From assembly GCA_933822405.4 (NCBI GenBank), contig CAKOGP040000001.1, positions 1,115,036 to 1,179,035 of the forward strand: a stretch of DNA of 64,000 nucleotides, in the 5' to 3' direction. Shown one piece after another: positions 688 through 8,322 of this stretch (position 1 is its first letter; every line of letters begins with the position of its first letter). Source of the stretch: Cylindrotheca closterium. Lineage: Eukaryota > Bacillariophyta > Bacillariophyceae > Bacillariales > Bacillariaceae. The notes below the pieces were generated by a model that ran no database searches, had not been told where the DNA came from, and worked only from the letters and a program-made list of their open reading frames with translations. The position numbers and the translations under genes are program-made.

Positions 688-2010
688 CTAGAGATCGTCA
701 AAGAACTTTTCATTTTCGGTTTTAAGACGTTTCTTTCGTCGGTCGTTCATCGAGGGACCCTCTTCTTCTTCGTCACTGTCGTCGCCATCGCTATCCTCCT
801 CGCTGTCCTCGTCGCCGTCTTCATCTTCGTCCTCCCAATCATCCTCACTATCGTCTTTCGAGGCTGTGTTTACAGCAACTGGTGCAGCAACTGGCTTAGA
901 TGTTCTTTCGTCCTCTGATTCCTCTCCTTCTAAACCTTCTTCCAGGAGCACCTGGGCATCCCAAAGCCGAATGTAATTGTCATGGCCTACACTTCCAACA
1001 ATAGAACGATCACTGTTCCATTCCAACTTTTCGATTGGAAAATCGTTGTGGTTTCCTAATACACCAACAAACTTATCAGGCTGAATCTGGGCAACTCGGA
1101 TCAAGCCGTCAGAGCTTCCTGTAAGGATCGTGTCCTCGTCGACCTTTAGAATGGCGTCGATACTTGAGGGGTGGCCAGGGAAACGGTCACTGCAATCTCC
1201 CCAAGTGTTCCAACTAAAGATACTGAGCACTCCCTCTTGGCTGCCACATACAACCTTGTTGCCTCCCTTTATTATCTTTAGGGATAGTAGTTCATCTCCC
1301 TGATCATCAGACAAGCGAAATGGGCTTTTCCCTGTCACTGGTTCTCGAGCAATTCGTAGATCAAATACGCTGAGTCTTCCATCCGCACATGTAGCTAAAA
1401 GTGTGTTTCCGTCTGCGGAAAGATCAAAGTCTGAGATGTAGTCCTCATTTTCTTTCCAACTAAAGACACATCCTCCAGGGCGATTTGATTTCGATTTCAT
1501 TCCGCTCCCACAAAGTCGTGAATCCCATATCCGCACACCCCCAAAGTCATCTCCCGTGGCGATAAGAGGGCTATTGTGAAACGGATAAATTTTTACAAGC
1601 GGATTGAATTCACCTTCCGTTGCAGGTTCGATATTCCATAGAAGATTCTTTTCTGAATTCGACGAAAAGGTGCAGACTCGACTCGAGTCAATTGCCGTCA
1701 TGTCACCTGCACTCCCTCCAGTATAAATTATTTCTCCATCGGGTGAGAAAGTAATGGCTCTACATGATGCTGGCTTGGTTGTCACTTTTTCGTTGTGCTT
1801 CACGGATAGAACTTGCGTATGTACGCTCATGGAAGAGAGAATGGTATCAGGATCTTCATCTTCATCATCCACTGCGTTTTCAGCCAGGAAATCGTGCACT
1901 TCGACCGTTCCATCGATCAGAGCACATGCACATAGGTTGTCTCGCTTTGGATGAAACGAAACGTCCAATGGCTGGTCACTGCACTCGATCGATTTCACGT
2001 ATTTCGTCAT
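688..2010 (-). CDS. WDR55: WD-repeat protein 55 homologue (WDR55/Jip5)
   Basis: The protein of 440 aa from the ATG at 2010 contains WD40 blades, seen as repeated GH/D...W or F-D elements (GDDFGGVRIWD, GSSDGLIRVAQI, GHDNYIRLWDAQ). An Asp/Glu-rich tail follows and ends in a basic RRKKRLKTENEKFFDDL block. That blade order plus an acidic-basic tail is typical of WDR55/Jip5, a nucleolar protein of rRNA processing and 60S biogenesis. Family length is about 380-490 aa, so this fits. An in-frame ATG at 2205 would add 65 poorly ordered residues. I prefer 2010 because MTKYVKSIECSDQPLDVSFH matches the usual start of the first blade. It is divergent from the glycosyltransferase gene at 2332. Confidence 0.85.
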   Translation of the reverse strand: MTKYVKSIECSDQPLDVSFHPKRDNLCACALIDGTVEVHDFLAENAVDDEDEDPDTILSSMSVHTQVLSVKHNEKVTTKPASCRAITFSPDGEIIYTGGSAGDMTAIDSSRVCTFSSNSEKNLLWNIEPATEGEFNPLVKIYPFHNSPLIATGDDFGGVRIWDSRLCGSGMKSKSNRPGGCVFSWKENEDYISDFDLSADGNTLLATCADGRLSVFDLRIAREPVTGKSPFRLSDDQGDELLSLKIIKGGNKVVCGSQEGVLSIFSWNTWGDCSDRFPGHPSSIDAILKVDEDTILTGSSDGLIRVAQIQPDKFVGVLGNHNDFPIEKLEWNSDRSIVGSVGHDNYIRLWDAQVLLEEGLEGEESEDERTSKPVAAPVAVNTASKDDSEDDWEDEDEDGDEDSEEDSDGDDSDEEEEGPSMNDRRKKRLKTENEKFFDDL

Positions 2011-2273
2011 TTGAGTCCGTCGATCTGTCTTCGAAGGCAAAAGTTGTTGGTTGTCGGATGATGATGTGTTTGGTTGTCGTTTCGCGCGACGGCGCACCGG
2101 GCTATTTCTTTCTGCTGCCAACGAACAACTTGAAACAAATCGAAATTCGTTAAATTCCAAGCAAGCGAGCCGGGCCTTTAGTCCCCGTGTTGTTGGAAAA
2201 ACCATGCTGGTGATGTAACGTCCAAGACATTCCCCACACGGAGTTTCGCAGCTACCTCACAATTTCAGCGATC

Positions 2274-2331: not shown

Positions 2332-4641
2332 ATGATGAGAAAAACAATTACCATCGTCACTGCGTTCGTAGTGGCTCTTGTGCTCTTGGTAGTGCTCCTG
2401 TCATCTGATGCCCCCACGGAGTCAGAGCCAGGATCTTATTTGAGAAATGGAGGTGGAAAGGAACCATCCTCGCAGAACCTCCAAACTATTGCACCAAGTG
2501 CCGCAAACCCCATTGAATTTCCCTCGGAAGAAGTTAAGGATTCCATCGACTTACCACTTGGTGATGTCAATGAGGAATATGGGTCTCCAAAAGATGGTTT
2601 GAACGATACTGCTGGCGTGTCTTCTCCCGACGATGAATCACCCAAACTGAAAATCGTCGTCTATGAAACTTCTAAACTCAGCACTTCGCTAGAAACTCTC
2701 CTTTTTGTGGCTGAAAGGTATGGAGTTGATACTACCATCGTTGGACAAGGAACAACTTTCAGCGGATTTGGATCCAAGTATGCACAACTCAAGGAAACTT
2801 TGGACGAACTCAACAAGGACAAAAATTCCATCATCGCGCTGATTGATGGAAGAGATGTTTTGCTCAATGTTGCAAGTCAAGTAAGCTATGACGCCTTCCA
2901 CGCCCAAATCCAACAGTTCGTCAGCACTTTTAACGAGCTTACCGAAGGAAAGCCAGATGCAGTATTGATCTCGGGAGAACAGCAGTGCTGTGTTTCAGCT
3001 CTTTGTTACGCAAATTCCCCTGATTACTACTTTGATTCCGTAACTGGAGAGCGAAAGAATAGAGCTTGTCCGTCAGGAGAAGAAGGTTGTATGTGGATGG
3101 ACAATGATAGTGTCAGGTATTGGGAATCAACAATGGTATCGGAAGCAAGAGCACGATCCGGCTCCAACAACTTCAGTCCATACTTGAATGCAGGAATGAT
3201 GGTTGGTACCCCTCAGAATCTCATCAATCTGATCCGCAGGCTGGATCTCGGAGAGGAAGAAGATGACCAAGCAGTTCTTTCTGCTATGTATATACAGTTT
3301 CCTGATTTGATTGTTCTGGACTATCAGCAACAGCTTCTTGGAAACAACGCTTGGCCAAGGGGGTTGGAACATGGTTGCATCTTTGATTTTGATCCAAACT
3401 CAAAAGACCTTGCTTACTTGACGAACAAAGAGACTGGAACAGCACCTCTTTTGCTCCATACCCCTGGAAAGTTCTACGCTTGCTTGGACATTTTAATTGA
3501 TCGTCTCGGAGGAATCAGTGATCACAGATATGCCCAAATCCAGAGCCGTTCCAGTAGTAACTACGGAACCGGCAACTATGGTAACTACGGTAACTACGGA
3601 AACTATGGTAACTACGGAAACTACGGGGGTAACTATGGTCCCAGCAACTATGGCAACTACGGCAACTCCAACTATGGTAACTACGGGGGGTCGTCCAGCA
3701 ACTACGGCAACTACGGCAACTACGGCAACGCCAACTATGGTAACTACGGGTCCAGCAACTACGGCAACTATGGTAACGCCAACTATGGAATCTCCAGTGG
3801 CAACTCTAACTATGGAAACGCAAACTATGGCAACAGTGGCAGCTCGAACTACGGTGGATTCAACTATGGAAGCTCGAACTATGGCAGCGCAAACTATGGG
3901 AGCTCCAGTGGTGGTAACTCGAACTACGGTGGATTCAACTATGGTAGCTCGAACTATGGCAGCGCAAACGATGGGAGCTCTAGTGGTGGTAAGTCGAACT
4001 ACGGTGGATTCAACTATGGTAATGCCAATTACGGGAGCTTAAGTGGAAACTCGAACTATGGTGGATTCAACTATGGTAACGCCAACTATGGCATTTCTAC
4101 GACTGGTCCCACAGCGGCTCCCACAGAAAGTCCAACATCGGTTCCAACCAATGTACCCACAGCGGCTCCCACAGAAAGTCCAACATCGGTTCCAACCAAT
4201 GTACCCACAGCGGCTCCCACAGAAAGTCCAACATCGGTTCCAACCAATGTACCCACGGCATATCCGACATCGGGCCCAACATCAATTCCAACCACTCATC
4301 CTAGCCAAGCTCCTTCGCCATCGCCAACAAGTCTAGAAGAAAGGTGTGAAGGATCTCCGTTTAAGGCATGTTGTCTAGCTGGAAACGAAATCTGCTGTGA
4401 CGTATGTACAGCCGAAGTGCCGGGACCAGCACCAACCAAAAAGCCTACATCCATACCTACATCGATGCCCACTTCCAATCCCACAGGAGAACCATCAATT
4501 GAAATTAGCGCGGCCCCTACTGAAGCCCAAGTTGAATTTGGTGGATTGGCTGATGAAGTTCCATCTTCTTCTCCGACATCAGATTGTTCGGAATGTACGA
4601 CAACGATGTGTGAGATGACTCGTGTCATCTGGGGATGTTAA
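2332..4641 (+). CDS. PLOD-like glycosyltransferase with NYG-repeat and PT-repeat tail
   Basis: This is a protein of 769 aa. Residues 5-25 form a signal anchor (ITIVTAFVVALVLLVVLLSS), so it is a type II Golgi/ER or secreted protein. Residues about 105-400 resemble the glycosyltransferase domain of lysyl hydroxylases (PLOD): IALIDGRDVLLN (DxD-like metal site), SGEQQCCVSALC, SPYLNAGMMVG, DDQAVLSAMY, QLLGNNAW and LLLHTPGKF. Then come about 35 NYG tripeptides (residues about 410-587), a Pro-Thr repeat (PTAAPTESPTSVPTNV three times), a Cys-rich module with two CC pairs, a second PT stretch and a final Cys-rich end. The acceptor is unknown. In animals the family glucosylates galactosyl-hydroxylysine. 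The tail looks like an extracellular matrix or wall-binding region. Its closest visible relative is at 6976-8322. Confidence 0.75.
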   Translation: MMRKTITIVTAFVVALVLLVVLLSSDAPTESEPGSYLRNGGGKEPSSQNLQTIAPSAANPIEFPSEEVKDSIDLPLGDVNEEYGSPKDGLNDTAGVSSPDDESPKLKIVVYETSKLSTSLETLLFVAERYGVDTTIVGQGTTFSGFGSKYAQLKETLDELNKDKNSIIALIDGRDVLLNVASQVSYDAFHAQIQQFVSTFNELTEGKPDAVLISGEQQCCVSALCYANSPDYYFDSVTGERKNRACPSGEEGCMWMDNDSVRYWESTMVSEARARSGSNNFSPYLNAGMMVGTPQNLINLIRRLDLGEEEDDQAVLSAMYIQFPDLIVLDYQQQLLGNNAWPRGLEHGCIFDFDPNSKDLAYLTNKETGTAPLLLHTPGKFYACLDILIDRLGGISDHRYAQIQSRSSSNYGTGNYGNYGNYGNYGNYGNYGGNYGPSNYGNYGNSNYGNYGGSSSNYGNYGNYGNANYGNYGSSNYGNYGNANYGISSGNSNYGNANYGNSGSSNYGGFNYGSSNYGSANYGSSSGGNSNYGGFNYGSSNYGSANDGSSSGGKSNYGGFNYGNANYGSLSGNSNYGGFNYGNANYGISTTGPTAAPTESPTSVPTNVPTAAPTESPTSVPTNVPTAAPTESPTSVPTNVPTAYPTSGPTSIPTTHPSQAPSPSPTSLEERCEGSPFKACCLAGNEICCDVCTAEVPGPAPTKKPTSIPTSMPTSNPTGEPSIEISAAPTEAQVEFGGLADEVPSSSPTSDCSECTTTMCEMTRVIWGC
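3559..4092 (+). repeat. Coding NYG tripeptide array
   Basis: About 35 Asn-Tyr-Gly units are encoded in frame, first as pure NYGNYG runs and then spaced by Gly/Ser/Ala/Phe (GF, SS, SA, NA). AAC/AAT, TAC/TAT and GGx codons vary between units, so selection at the protein level is likely. One unit is changed to NDG near 3970. Confidence 0.9.
3844..3993 (+). repeat. 75-bp tandem repeat inside the NYG array
   Basis: Two near-identical 75-bp copies (3844-3918 and 3919-3993) encode the 25-residue block SNYGGFNYGSSNYGSAN-YG-SSSGG. They are followed by a partial third copy from 3994. Few base differences separate them, which points to recent tandem duplication in frame. Confidence 0.85.
4108..4251 (+). 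repeat. Three exact 48-bp repeats encoding PTAAPTESPTSVPTNV
   Basis: Copies at 4108-4155, 4156-4203 and 4204-4251 are identical by eye and in frame. Each encodes 16 residues rich in Pro-Thr. Absence of synonymous changes suggests very recent expansion or gene conversion. Pro-Thr tracts of this kind are common in secreted algal proteins and are likely O-glycosylated. Confidence 0.9.
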
Positions 4642-4795
4642 AAAGAGACACAATTTCTGTTGAATAGATTGTTATAATCCTATAATACGTGTAATTTATT
4701 ATGGTCCATTATCTGATTGTTCCAGTATTAGGTACTTGTAAAGGCCTTAATCCGTCCAACTTCAACGATCGTATCAGAGGAGGTTAGTGATCTTC

Positions 4796-5848
4796 ATGCA
4801 GACACCTCTGCTTTGCTTCACCCTTCTAATTCAATTGACTCTTGGATCAGATTTCTCTCCACGGTCAGCATTCACCACTACAAATAACAGACCTTTCGCG
4901 ATGTCGCCTGAAACACTTTCCAAGACTTGTTCTTCATTGCAAGATGTTATCGGAACCGATGCTGGAAATCGGGGAATGAAATGTCTCATCGTTCCTGGTG
5001 ATCTGGAAAAAGCTGCCAACGCCATCGCATCCCTTGAACCAAAGTCCACAGTGGTTGTACTTTCTGGCTTTCCCTGTTGTGTATCACATGACCCACCAAC
5101 CGAAACGGATGGGCCTCCAGGCACCTTTGCGATCGCACGAGCAATGGCAGCCTTGGGCCATGAGGTCATCGTGGTGACAGATACGTGCAATGAAGCAGTA
5201 TTTGCTGCTGCCTTGAAGAACTTGGCACTTCCTTCCGAGGACTGTGGGTCGGTCGTTCTTCACGCCTATCCTCCATCATTGTCGGAAGAGGAAGAGAAGA
5301 AGTTTTCCGAACTGGCGAACGACTGTAGTCTGCTAGTGGCTTGTGAGAGAGCAGGGCCATCAAAAGATGGGGTTTGTTATACAATGCGGGCGATAGATAT
5401 GAATGAAAAGGGACTTATCGCTCCGCTTCATCGTCTCGTCAAAGAATCCAATGCACCGTTTATTGGCATTGGGGATGGTGGGAATGAACTTGGGATGGGG
5501 AAGGTGATCGATCAGATTGCAGCAAACATTCCAAAAGGGGCGACGATTGGCTGTGTCGTTCCGGCAGATTATTTGATTGCAGCAAGTGTGTCTAACTGGG
5601 GTGGCTATGTGTTGGCTGCTGTCGCAGCAGTCACGAAAGCGAACGATTCAAAGTCATTGGAGGCGTGGTTGGAAAGATGTTTGCCAAGTGAAGATGATGA
5701 AATAGCTCTTCTAAATCGCTGTGTCGCTGTAGGATGCAGAGATGGAGTCAGTGGGCAAGTAGAGGCTACTGTTGACGGAATGCCTCTTGAAACAAGTATG
5801 CAATGTCTTCGAGACATTCGCAAATCTGCATTGGATGCTGCATCCTAA
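4796..5848 (+). CDS. D-glutamate cyclase-like protein (DUF4392)
   Basis: The protein of 350 aa has a DUF4392 domain across most of its length. Visible hallmarks are VVLSGFPCC near residue 85, ETDGPPGTFAIARAMAALG, ACERAGPSKDGVCYTMRAIDM and the very conserved GIGDGGNELGMG, then VVPADYLIAASVSNWGGY. In animals this domain forms the C-terminal half of mitochondrial DGLUCY, which turns D-glutamate into 5-oxo-D-proline. Here it stands alone with an N-terminal hydrophobic leader (LLCFTLLIQLTLGSDFSPRSAF), so plastid or secretory targeting is possible. The first ATG is at 4796. The substrate is inferred from the family only. Confidence 0.75.
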   Translation: MQTPLLCFTLLIQLTLGSDFSPRSAFTTTNNRPFAMSPETLSKTCSSLQDVIGTDAGNRGMKCLIVPGDLEKAANAIASLEPKSTVVVLSGFPCCVSHDPPTETDGPPGTFAIARAMAALGHEVIVVTDTCNEAVFAAALKNLALPSEDCGSVVLHAYPPSLSEEEEKKFSELANDCSLLVACERAGPSKDGVCYTMRAIDMNEKGLIAPLHRLVKESNAPFIGIGDGGNELGMGKVIDQIAANIPKGATIGCVVPADYLIAASVSNWGGYVLAAVAAVTKANDSKSLEAWLERCLPSEDDEIALLNRCVAVGCRDGVSGQVEATVDGMPLETSMQCLRDIRKSALDAAS

Positions 5849-6079
5849 TAATAAGATACCATAATCATGTTGTGAAATGTTATAGTACGCTATCCACTCT
5901 TTACTGATATCTGCCTCAATGTGGGCAGTACATTGTACCCGCTACTGTACCTGGGACCCAATACGATGGAGTGTGCAGAACTTGGAAAGATTGGAATCAA
6001 ACGACTCAACGCAACCAAAATATCCATCAATCTTGCACTTCACACTTCCATACCGGTACACTTCCATCCATTCCCAATT

Positions 6080-6895
6080 ATGTTGTTCAGGGTATTCCTT
6101 TGGACGACGCTTGGGCCACGGTTATCATTCGCATTTCTTCGTAGTAGACCCTTCAGTGTTCGAAAATCTGCGATGACAACGAGTCAGAACATGGCCTATG
6201 AAGTTGAGGAAAAGTTTCAACTTTCCGAGGCATCAAAGGTGGAGTCCAGATTGAAAGAGTTGGGGTTTGTACCAAAGAAGCAAGCAGAATTCGTGGATTG
6301 GTATTTCGATACTGAGAAAAACGAGCTTTCACTTCAAGATTGTTGGCTAAGGTTTCGAGGGACATCGAATGTGGATGGAGACTGGGAACTGAAGAAAGCT
6401 CATGGCGAGAGCACCAGTACGACTGTTTACGAAGAAATTGCCGGGGAGGAAGCTATTTCTGCCACCAAGACGATACTCGTGGAGAGGGGCTGTAATATAG
6501 GTGAGCAAAGGGCTGACGATGACAATAACTTTGAAGCTCCACCTCTCCCCAACTTTGCAAGTGACCTCCCTCTTCGGGCATTCTGTCGTCTGGAAACTAA
6601 GCGATCTAGCTGGCAATTGGATAAAGAATGGTCTACTCAAACCCACGCAGGGTTATCTGTAGATTTAGATGTGACAAATACTGGCTACTCGGTCGGGGAA
6701 GTAGAGATGGTTGTCGACGACAAGGACAAAATAAAGGATGCTAACAAGCGAGTGCAGCTGTTGATTGCCGAGCTGACTAAAGGTTCGGCACCTTGCGAAG
6801 GGCCAGCAACTGGAAAACTTGAACAATTCTTGATGATTCATCGGCCAAATCATTACGAGGACTGCTTGGAAGCTGGTGTGATCAAGCGAAGATGA
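6080..6895 (+). CDS. CYTH-domain thiamine-triphosphatase-like protein
   Basis: The protein is 271 aa from the ATG at 6080. The CYTH fold signature EVEEKF lies near residue 38 (ExExK, the triphosphate/metal tunnel). It is followed by DWYFDTEKNELSLQDCWLRFR, WELKKAH, CRLETKRSSW, LSVDLDVTNTGYSVGEVEM and a C-terminal AGVIKR. The EVEEKF, WxLRxR, WELKK and ExE strands match thiamine triphosphatase (ThTPase), although the CYTH family also includes inorganic triphosphatases. An N-terminal MLFRVFLWTTLGPRLSFAFL leader may target an organelle. A shorter start at 6173 (MTTSQNMAYEVEEKF) would give the bare domain, and an upstream ATG at 5921 is less likely. Confidence 0.75.
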   Translation: MLFRVFLWTTLGPRLSFAFLRSRPFSVRKSAMTTSQNMAYEVEEKFQLSEASKVESRLKELGFVPKKQAEFVDWYFDTEKNELSLQDCWLRFRGTSNVDGDWELKKAHGESTSTTVYEEIAGEEAISATKTILVERGCNIGEQRADDDNNFEAPPLPNFASDLPLRAFCRLETKRSSWQLDKEWSTQTHAGLSVDLDVTNTGYSVGEVEMVVDDKDKIKDANKRVQLLIAELTKGSAPCEGPATGKLEQFLMIHRPNHYEDCLEAGVIKRR

Positions 6896-6975
6896 ACATC
6901 GTCACTTTTCAGGCTTTGGTATTGTCTGTGTAACGAGATACTAACTATAATTTATTGTTCTAGTGATTTTGGTCT

Positions 6976-8322
6976 CTAGTGGTTGCTCCAAAAATCTGTG
7001 ATGATGCTCCAAAATGATGATGATCTTGCTTGGGGAGCCTCTGTTGGTGCTGCCGTTCCCGGCGTTCCGATTGTCACAGTTCCATCTATTGGTTTCGCAG
7101 TGGTCACTGCGAGCACTGTTGGTGCGGCAGAGGGTGAAGGAGAAGGTGCCACAGACGGCACAATGGAAGGTGCATCGGAAGGTACTTGCGAATCTGATGG
7201 TGATACAGTCTCTGGAAGCTCACCGTAGTTGAAGACATTTGATCCGTATTGATAGTTTCCATATTGATAGTTTCCATATTGGTAGTTTCCATATTGGTTG
7301 CTTCCATATTGAAGTAGTCTCTTGGTTGCGAATTTAGCGCCCTTGTGTCTTGCATCATTGACTCCTCCAAGTCTTTCAATCAATGTATCCAGGCATTCGT
7401 AGAATTTGCCTGGTGTGTGAAGAATCAAAGGCACAGTCTTGGTTTGGACATTTGTCAAGAAAGAGTCATTTCGAGTGTCGGGATCGAAATCATAAATGCA
7501 ACCATGCTCGAGACCCTTTGGCCATGCGTTGTTTCCAAGAAGTTCTTGTTCGTAATCAAGAACAATCAAATCAGGAAATTGCAAGTACATGGCAGACAAA
7601 ACTGCTTGATCGTCCTCTTCTTCGCCAATATCCATTAGTTGAATAAGGTTGATCAAGTTTTCGGCTGTGCCGACCATCATCCCAGCGTTTAGGTATGGGC
7701 TAGCATCGGCAGATTCACTTCTTGCATATGCTTCAGCTTCCATCGTAGATTGCCAATATTTGACATTCTCATTGTTTTGCCAGTAGCAATCCTTCTCTCC
7801 AGATGAGCAGGCTCGGTTCTTTCTAGCTCCAGAGACTGGGTCGAAGTAGAAGTCAGGAGAATCAGCATGACACAGCGCAGCAACACAGCACTGCTGTTCG
7901 GCAGAGATTAGGACAGCATTTGGTTTTTCTTCGGTGAGTTCGTCAAAGACACCGACAAAGTGTTCCAATCTATCTTCAAATTCTTGATGGTCAACTTGAA
8001 CCCCAACGTTCAAGAGGACATCTCGGCCATCAATCACAGCAACGAGAGTTTCAGGCTCTCCTTCAAACTCGGACAAGGCGTCCATGAGTTGCAAATATTT
8101 GGATCCAAAGCCATTGAAAGCACTTCCTTGGCCGACTACCGTGGTTTCGATACCAACTCTTTCGGTTGCGTTGAGAAACATCTGGAGGGAGGTGCTGTGC
8201 TCATCAGTTTCGTAGATGATGATTTTTAACTTTTCGGTGCGCTGGAAGGATCGCACATAAAGTGCACCCAATGTGACGAATACCCCCAGCGTGGTGAGAG
8301 ATAGAAGGACTTGTAGCTTCAT
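6976..8322 (-). CDS. PLOD-like glycosyltransferase paralogue with short QYG tail
   Basis: The protein of 448 aa is clearly a paralogue of the gene at 2332. It has the same N-terminal membrane anchor and the same run of motifs: VVGQGSAFNGFGSKYLQL, VAVIDGRDVLLN, ISAEQQCCVAALC, SPYLNAGMMVG, DDQAVLSAMYLQFPDL, QELLGNNAWPKGLEHGC and LILHTPGKF. The catalytic domain is similar, but the tail is different. About 30 residues of QYG/NYQYG repeats are followed by Ser/Pro/Thr-rich sequence, with no Cys-rich modules. It ends in an aromatic SSFWSIITDFWSNH. It lies convergent to the first copy with two unrelated genes between. The ATG at 8322 is at the start of the anchor. Confidence 0.75.
   Translation of the reverse strand: MKLQVLLSLTTLGVFVTLGALYVRSFQRTEKLKIIIYETDEHSTSLQMFLNATERVGIETTVVGQGSAFNGFGSKYLQLMDALSEFEGEPETLVAVIDGRDVLLNVGVQVDHQEFEDRLEHFVGVFDELTEEKPNAVLISAEQQCCVAALCHADSPDFYFDPVSGARKNRACSSGEKDCYWQNNENVKYWQSTMEAEAYARSESADASPYLNAGMMVGTAENLINLIQLMDIGEEEDDQAVLSAMYLQFPDLIVLDYEQELLGNNAWPKGLEHGCIYDFDPDTRNDSFLTNVQTKTVPLILHTPGKFYECLDTLIERLGGVNDARHKGAKFATKRLLQYGSNQYGNYQYGNYQYGNYQYGSNVFNYGELPETVSPSDSQVPSDAPSIVPSVAPSPSPSAAPTVLAVTTAKPIDGTVTIGTPGTAAPTEAPQARSSSFWSIITDFWSNH
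7225..7314 (-). repeat. Coding QYG/NYQYG array in the second glycosyltransferase
   Basis: The stretch encodes LLQYGSNQYGNYQYGNYQYG and similar repeats, about 30 residues long. It is shorter and Gln-rich compared with the NYG array of the paralogue, so the two tails expanded separately after duplication. Confidence 0.85.

Follow-up and report, generated by a model that had tools for sequence, protein, structure and literature searches.

Diatom PLOD-type glycosyltransferases with NYG and QYG tails: a paralogous pair in Cylindrotheca closterium and a putative RXL-N/QY tail module in their relatives

Analysis of a 64,000-nucleotide stretch of the Cylindrotheca closterium genome (the window; C1:1115036-1179035) revealed two genes, A and B, each encoding a glycosyltransferase domain of the Pfam family GT_PLOD (PF25342) followed by a tail of NYG or QYG tripeptides (Table 1). 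At a family cut-off of 27 bits, the domains scored 40.6 (A) and 46.2 (B), and that of a third paralog on another contig, gene C (P0003, 565 amino acids; L007, region C457:26158-27057), scored 47.1. No other GT_PLOD gene was found by an exon-wise Pfam search of the genome (47.6 Mb in 572 contigs), a search in which heavily split genes could be missed. The catalytic halves of A and B share about 64% protein identity. In blocks of 30 codons their DNA is 57 to 81% identical, and the longest stretch of exact identity is 20 nt, which indicates that the duplication is not recent. The Pfam scores and protein identity bear out a preliminary description of the locus as an inverted pair of paralogous PLOD-like glycosyltransferases with N/QYG tails. 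The tail counts given there were also accurate. The "about 35 NYG units plus PT repeats and Cys modules" of one protein are exactly 35 NYG, PT repeats and two Cys clusters in A, and the short QYG array of the other consists of five QYG and one NYG in B. The two genes were said to face each other; they are convergent but not adjacent, as two plus-strand genes (GLUCM-like_C and CYTH) stand between them. The proteins had further been called membrane-anchored. Each has a single N-terminal hydrophobic stretch, which was judged by hydropathy alone and could be a signal anchor or a signal peptide.

Table 1. Features of the gene A/gene B locus (positions in the window)
Feature	Position	Strand	Remark
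WD-repeat-like protein with acidic tail	688-2205	-	By eye; adjoins gene A
Gene A (GT_PLOD glycosyltransferase; tail: NYG array, PT repeats, Cys modules)	2332-4641	+	769 amino acids; frame without intron; open reading frame, Pfam
A, hydrophobic N-terminal segment (residues 5-23)	2344-2400	+	Signal anchor or signal peptide; hydropathy
A, catalytic domain (residues 105-401)	2644-3534	+	Limits set by hand from relatives
A, domain motifs DGRD, EQQCC, EEDDQ, LHTPGK	2845-2856, 2977-2991, 3256-3270, 3454-3471	+	
A, NYG array (35 NYG; residues 410-587)	3559-4092	+	No RXL between domain and array
A, PT-rich repeats, block 1	4105-4329	+	About 3.1 exact 48-bp copies at 4108-4256
A, Cys module 1	4345-4407	+	CEGSPFKACCLAGNEICCDVC; related module in PT-rich protein on contig C555
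A, PT-rich repeats, block 2	4420-4497	+	
A, Cys module 2, C terminus	4585-4638	+	CSECTTTMCEMTRVIWGC; kept with small changes in P0001 and P0002
GLUCM-like_C gene (PF14336)	within 4787-5848	+	Pfam
CYTH gene (PF01928)	within 5921-6895	+	Pfam
Gene B (GT_PLOD glycosyltransferase; RXL; QYG tail)	6976-8322	-	448 amino acids; uninterrupted frame; open reading frame, Pfam
B, QYG array (5 QYG and 1 NYG)	7222-7311	-	
B, KRLL (RXL directly before first QYG)	7312-7323	-	Probable processing site; role of RXL from PMC4557024
B, catalytic domain (residues 29-326)	7345-8238	-	
B, hydrophobic N-terminal segment (residues 5-23)	8254-8310	-	Hydropathy

In the array of gene A, Gly is encoded by each of its four codons and Tyr by each of its two, the pattern expected if the protein sequence is held; Asn is encoded by AAC in 34 of the 35 units. 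A genome-wide search for NYG-x-NYG returned 36 matches: 28 in A, 5 in C (C457) and 3 isolated singles on other contigs. The same pattern read backward, as a control, gave 13. Within the genome, NYG clusters are concentrated in the GT_PLOD gene family. Other YG-rich runs (YGxYGxYG) occur on C191, C351 and C569, and weak matches to the A array were obtained on C435, C36 and C569 (E values of 0.008 to 0.2). Lysine is scarce in both tails (4 of 374 residues after residue 395 in A; 1 of 114 after residue 334 in B).

An assembly join between the NYG region and another gene was rejected because P0001, from the metagenome-assembled genome of another species, has the same order of glycosyltransferase, NYG array, PT repeats and Cys modules, with 62% identity over 100% of the query. 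A random simple repeat is made unlikely by the conservation of N/Q-Y and the use of all Gly codons. The outcomes that the preliminary description named as refuting, an assembly join or tails missing from orthologs, were thus both decided in favor of a real feature. P0001 (SGBAC_001058) is of the A type and carries the full NYG-PT-Cys tail, and P0069 (SGBAC_001055) is 88% identical to B and contains KRQLQYG. Both are assigned to a contig of 65,189 bases in a Bacillariaceae metagenome-assembled genome. Their locus tags leave two genes between them, as in the window, which suggests that the A/B gene order is shared. Two further relatives, P0035 (685 amino acids, 22 N/QYG) and P0026 (9 N/QYG), are transcript derived, which shows that domain and array tail share one transcribed reading frame.

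A Cys- and PT-rich protein (L028, region C555:34630-34731) ends in a segment resembling Cys module 1 of A (CDGSPFKNCCLKGSSFCCHVC), and a similar PT-rich frame adjoins it. Long mucin-like PTEPSSP repeats occur at L029 (C161) and L030 (C45), and their antisense strands yield false Pfam Collagen matches. L029 also includes a GDPHFKTW stretch resembling the GDPH motif of diatom adhesion proteins. The metagenomic protein P0002 begins like B and switches near residue 260-280 to an A-type NYG-PT-Cys tail; the switch stems either from recombination within the gene pair or from chimerism of the contig. In P0067 (metagenome, 482 amino acids), NYG arrays alternate with RRxLQ-P-x-ITDSSDAE blocks and the model has no glycosyltransferase domain; it looks like an RXL precursor of several peptides, or else like one exon of some larger gene. 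P0051 and P0083 are both assigned to a contig of 83,566 bases and are possible neighboring paralogs in another genome.

In B (KRLL) and C (RRL), an RXL motif stands between the enzyme and the N/Q-Y sequence; A has none. The order of elements in gene C is the glycosyltransferase domain, RRL before the first NYG, eight NYG, a hydrophobic segment at residues 429 to 447 and a long tail ending in RRNRTVHW. Its N terminus has the look of a signal peptide by eye and is below the hydropathy threshold used. This layout recalls the topology of silicanin and SAP proteins.

Modeling of B residues 28 to 334 gave a structure with a mean predicted local distance difference test (pLDDT) score of 93, whose fold matches the glycosyltransferase domains of LH3 and R699. 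The Mn2+-binding DxxD motif, the twin Asp and the donor-site His and Asn are present: they are kept in 51 to 58 of 58 sequences and align with D83/D86, D162/D163, H216 and N138 of R699. The acceptor side differs. Residue N218 of R699, which contacts the acceptor sugar, aligns with Pro in 57/58 sequences, where HtPg stands over HGNG. By equal spacing from a conserved Glu, the position of the gating Trp (W145 in LH3, W118 in R699) would fall on Cys119 (57/58), in a stretch outside the printed alignments. A CC pair is invariant or nearly so (58/58 and 57/58). No 2-oxoglutarate/Fe lysyl hydroxylase domain was detected with Pfam in either protein at E values up to 1. The A/B family most likely comprises GT-A-fold, Mn2+- and UDP-sugar-dependent glycosyltransferases of the secretory pathway that are related to LH3, a collagen lysyl hydroxylase, through its glucosyltransferase half, and to mimivirus R699, and have a different acceptor site; their catalytic activity is predicted.

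A search with an array-bearing query is biased toward NYG; relatives were hence collected with the catalytic region alone (44 matches) and with a domain-based profile, A2 (best 120 of 189 matches used). The profile includes the full tail of P0064 and the full short-tail proteins P0076 and P0082 and may favor Cys-rich tails like that of P0064. Altogether, 174 proteins were collected, 172 with the domain (all except P0067 and P0068) and 162 with at least 20 residues after it. Among these 162, NY or QY follows the domain in 150, RXL lies within 60 residues after the domain in 142, and at least two or at least four N/QYG occur in 75 and 61, respectively. In all proteins with both motifs, RXL precedes the first N/QY (134/134; 101/101 when both are in the first 60 residues). 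Of 20 chosen close relatives, B and C included, 18 have RXL no more than 20 residues past the domain end; the two exceptions are P0001, of the A type, and the hybrid P0002. A VHW or IHW ending, as in the RRNRTVHW of gene C, was found in 14 of the 174 proteins.

Clustering at 75% identity gave 64 clusters, each represented by its longest-tail member, and 62 representatives were kept after two with short tails were dropped. Of these, 51 have RXL, 61 have NY or QY, and 44 have an NY after RXL. One thousand shuffles of the tails gave means of 13.8, 26.6 and 2.5 and maxima of 26, 36 and 10, respectively. Composition controls on the 62 gave L.R in 9, K.L in 11, YN in 5, DY in 12 and SY in 9. The 48 array-free representatives had NY in 44, RXL in 40 and CNY in 20, against shuffle means of 7.3, 12.5 and 0.4 in the same order. 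An alignment of 54 hand-picked members, nearly all from the divergent group described below, had N346-Y347 as its sole tail columns conserved at 90% or more. A C(x)N/QYx(1-8)C loop was found in 34/172 proteins, and the strict form CNYx(1-8)C in 30/162. The set obtained with the catalytic region alone gave NY/QY in 31/39 and RXL in 31/39; in that set, 5/44 have fewer than 20 residues after the domain and 8/39 of the rest lack NY/QY. P0073, P0077 and P0078 leave the alignment at one common place, and P0074 ends at KMTQQ where its sibling P0085 continues into NYG. Judged from the protein sequences, several of these relatives look like gene models left unspliced, as probably do some of the 12 among the 162 that have no NY/QY.

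A tree of 83 domains separated a group of 33 rows, including those of C. closterium, Nitzschia inconspicua and Pseudo-nitzschia multistriata, from a divergent group of 50 rows with support of 100/99. The tree was midpoint rooted, so that its direction is not proven, and the program warned of long branches, including P0066 and P0168. A single N/QY is found in 38/50 rows of the divergent group, in which P0052 has a small array of five NYG. Since RXL-NY occurs in both groups, the module is best read as ancestral and the NYG/QYG arrays as its later amplification. Tail composition varies. None of the 61 array tails reaches 10% lysine (0 to 3.2% in the array segment of 43 proteins), and 25 of 101 non-array tails have at least 10%, up to 42% in P0156; "Tyr-rich, lysine-poor" thus fits the arrays and not the whole family. 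Behind RXL, the non-array tails of P0119, P0128, P0130, P0137 and P0156 (26 to 42% lysine) resemble silaffins in composition, which the NYG arrays do not. Of the tail, just RXL and N/Q-Y extend across the family, and everything else can vary freely.

What appears to be new here is an RXL-N/QY module across the wider GT_PLOD family, of which the NYG arrays look like amplifications. The impression in the preliminary description that the two tails differ completely holds only at a superficial level; most of the family shares this module in variably amplified form, with A lacking RXL. That description also knew of no family with such a design. The catalytic domain belongs to a described Pfam family; the architecture is without a description that we could find, and the matches listed from the open-licence PMC literature included no paper with a title on PLOD-type glycosyltransferases with NYG tails in diatoms.

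The RXL motif has a precedent in diatom precursor proteins. In silaffin-1 of C. fusiformis, the RRIL or RRNL closing each repeat is reported to be absent from the mature peptides, and RXL has been put forward as the signal for an endopeptidase that acts generally on diatom precursors (PMC4557024). The motif has also been described for silicanin-1 (PMC5525289). For the SAPs, a role in precursor processing is called hypothesized and unproven (PMC5647440).

We see roughly even chances that these genes encode precursors of a lumenal glycosyltransferase and an RXL-separable N/Q-Y peptide, with the A enzyme staying joined to a matrix-type tail. The layout in question is a segment for targeting to the endoplasmic reticulum (ER), the catalytic domain, RXL and a module with an N/Q-Y core; this module is a single NY in many divergent relatives, often in a CNYxxC-type loop, and a long, lysine-poor NYG/QYG array in Bacillariaceae. 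The precursor would enter the ER, where the domain would work in the lumen with UDP-sugar and Mn2+. In most members, including B and C, an RXL-directed protease like that which processes silaffins would probably cut the N/Q-Y peptide off the enzyme within the secretory pathway. The freed peptide (lysine-poor QYG in B) would then presumably reach the wall or the mucilage/extracellular matrix, and the enzyme would remain lumenal or be secreted. Its acceptor could be its own N/Q-Y peptide or another wall or mucilage molecule. The five relatives fused to a sulfotransferase (P0050, P0084, P0104, P0105 and P0159) fit the assembly of sulfated glycans. Because A has no RXL and its array runs on into PT repeats and Cys modules, of which one recurs in another PT-rich protein, the A enzyme would stay covalently joined to its tail.

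Several points weigh against this precursor model. RXL is missing before the tail in A, P0001 and P0002, and processing would not be universal; in the stretch searched, 20/162 proteins lack RXL, and 12/162 lack NY/QY. The lysine-rich non-array tails mean that tails are not uniform. RXL is a weak three-letter motif with a processing role that is hypothesized (PMC5647440). Shuffles and representatives leave phylogenetic dependence in the counts, and choosing the longest-tail member favors motif finding. RXL cleavage, activity and localization are predictions for every member.

The tail could instead be a matrix or anchoring element, a YG-rich sticker (phase separating, cross-linkable or wall binding) through which the wall, the mucilage or a Golgi subdomain retains the enzyme, whose targets would be other secreted proteins or polysaccharides. 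Gene A suits this idea, with its array joined to PT repeats and Cys modules, no RXL before the array and module 1 recurring in the C555 protein. Fusions of the glycosyltransferase to a sulfotransferase (P0050, PF03567; P0084, PF09037; and, by precomputed Pfam annotation, P0104, P0105 and P0159, PF03567) include two, P0050 and P0084, that fit sulfated glycans on other molecules. The self-anchoring proposed in the preliminary description may apply to A. In B, C and most relatives, however, enzyme and tail are separated by an RXL, so that in B and C the array is more likely to be cut off than to anchor. The single N/QY of 38/50 divergent rows is moreover too short for a lone sticker, and as a general account this alternative is possible but doubtful. 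Another alternative is an enzyme-substrate fusion, in which the glycosyltransferase modifies the Tyr (or Asn/Gln) of its own NY/NYG/QYG module, RXL cleavage releases the glycopeptide and arrays multiply the acceptor sites. N/Q-Y is kept in tails with one to 35 copies, the NYG clusters of the genome lie in A and C besides the three isolated singles, the lysine-poor arrays make a hydroxylysine acceptor within them unlikely, and the acceptor-sugar contact N218 of R699 is Pro in 57/58. LH3 and R699, however, act on hydroxylysine-borne sugars and not on Tyr, and a lysine acceptor is possible in those single-NY relatives whose tails are lysine rich (25/101 non-array tails with at least 10%). An AlphaFold2 model of the full-length short-tail protein P0121 leaves the CNY loop unplaced (pLDDT below 50 at residues 340-350 and 352-372) and decides nothing either way. 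We consider the fusion unlikely.

A collagen-type hydroxylysine glucosyltransferase with an irrelevant simple-repeat tail would account for the Pfam name and fold, and hydroxylysine derivatives are reported from diatom walls (PMC4557024). The tail is nevertheless conserved beyond the shuffle controls, neither A nor B has lysyl hydroxylase as a second Pfam domain, and the acceptor residue N218 has become Pro in 57/58. The genome contains 41 Pfam Collagen matches, and the two loci read (C45 and C161) are antisense PTEPSSP repeats. This explanation is very improbable. A bolder version of the precursor model is that each gene combines a PLOD-fold glycosyltransferase, its own N/Q-Y acceptor and a silaffin-type RXL site at which a protease frees the glycosylated peptide for the wall or mucilage, the acceptor having been amplified in raphid diatoms up to 35 or more times, from priming peptide to matrix polymer. 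We hold this only tentatively, as a rather unlikely case. If true, this would be a self-contained way, encoded by the genes themselves, of making a glycan matrix linked through Tyr or Asn.

Few of the enzymes responsible for glycosylating wall and adhesive proteins in diatoms are known to have been assigned. In this family, a glycosyltransferase whose donor-site residues are conserved is coupled to the RXL motif known from biosilica precursors and to a tiny, conserved NY motif whose copy number varies widely. The family bears on the targets of the RXL protease and on the enzyme and acceptor with which diatom matrix glycans begin. In view of the altered acceptor site, naming A/B-type genes procollagen glucosyltransferases is inadvisable.

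Glycogenin is a GT-A enzyme that primes on a Tyr acceptor in its own chain, a likeness that counts only if the diatom enzymes use an acceptor in cis, and it belongs to another glycosyltransferase family and has another tail. Human LH3 (PLOD3; PDB 6fxr and 6wfv) has the glycosyltransferase fold of the diatom domain; the diatom proteins differ in the absence of a detected lysyl hydroxylase domain, the change from HGNG to HTPG, the CC pair and the RXL-NY tail. The donor-site residues of the mimivirus R699 collagen glucosyltransferase (PDB 9dyt, 9dzs and 9e92) align with those of the diatom family, which has Pro at N218 and, by spacing, Cys at W118; this comparison covers the domain. AC3362 and its relatives from Amphora coffeaeformis (PMC4220933) resemble the proteins described here as secreted Tyr-rich sequences of a raphid diatom wall, but AC3362 is both lysine and Tyr rich with KG repeats; no word beginning with "glycosyl" occurs in the main text of that report. 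The silaffin-type RXL precursors (silaffin-1 of C. fusiformis, silacidins, frustulins, SAPs and silicanin-1) share ER targeting and RXL, often as RRxL, beside a low-complexity region. Gene C has an order like that of the silicanin and SAP proteins, with a lumenal part, a transmembrane segment and a cytosolic tail. The tails of A and B are nearly free of lysine and are therefore not silaffins, and the diatom glycosyltransferase family differs from all of these precursors in carrying an enzyme domain within the precursor itself.

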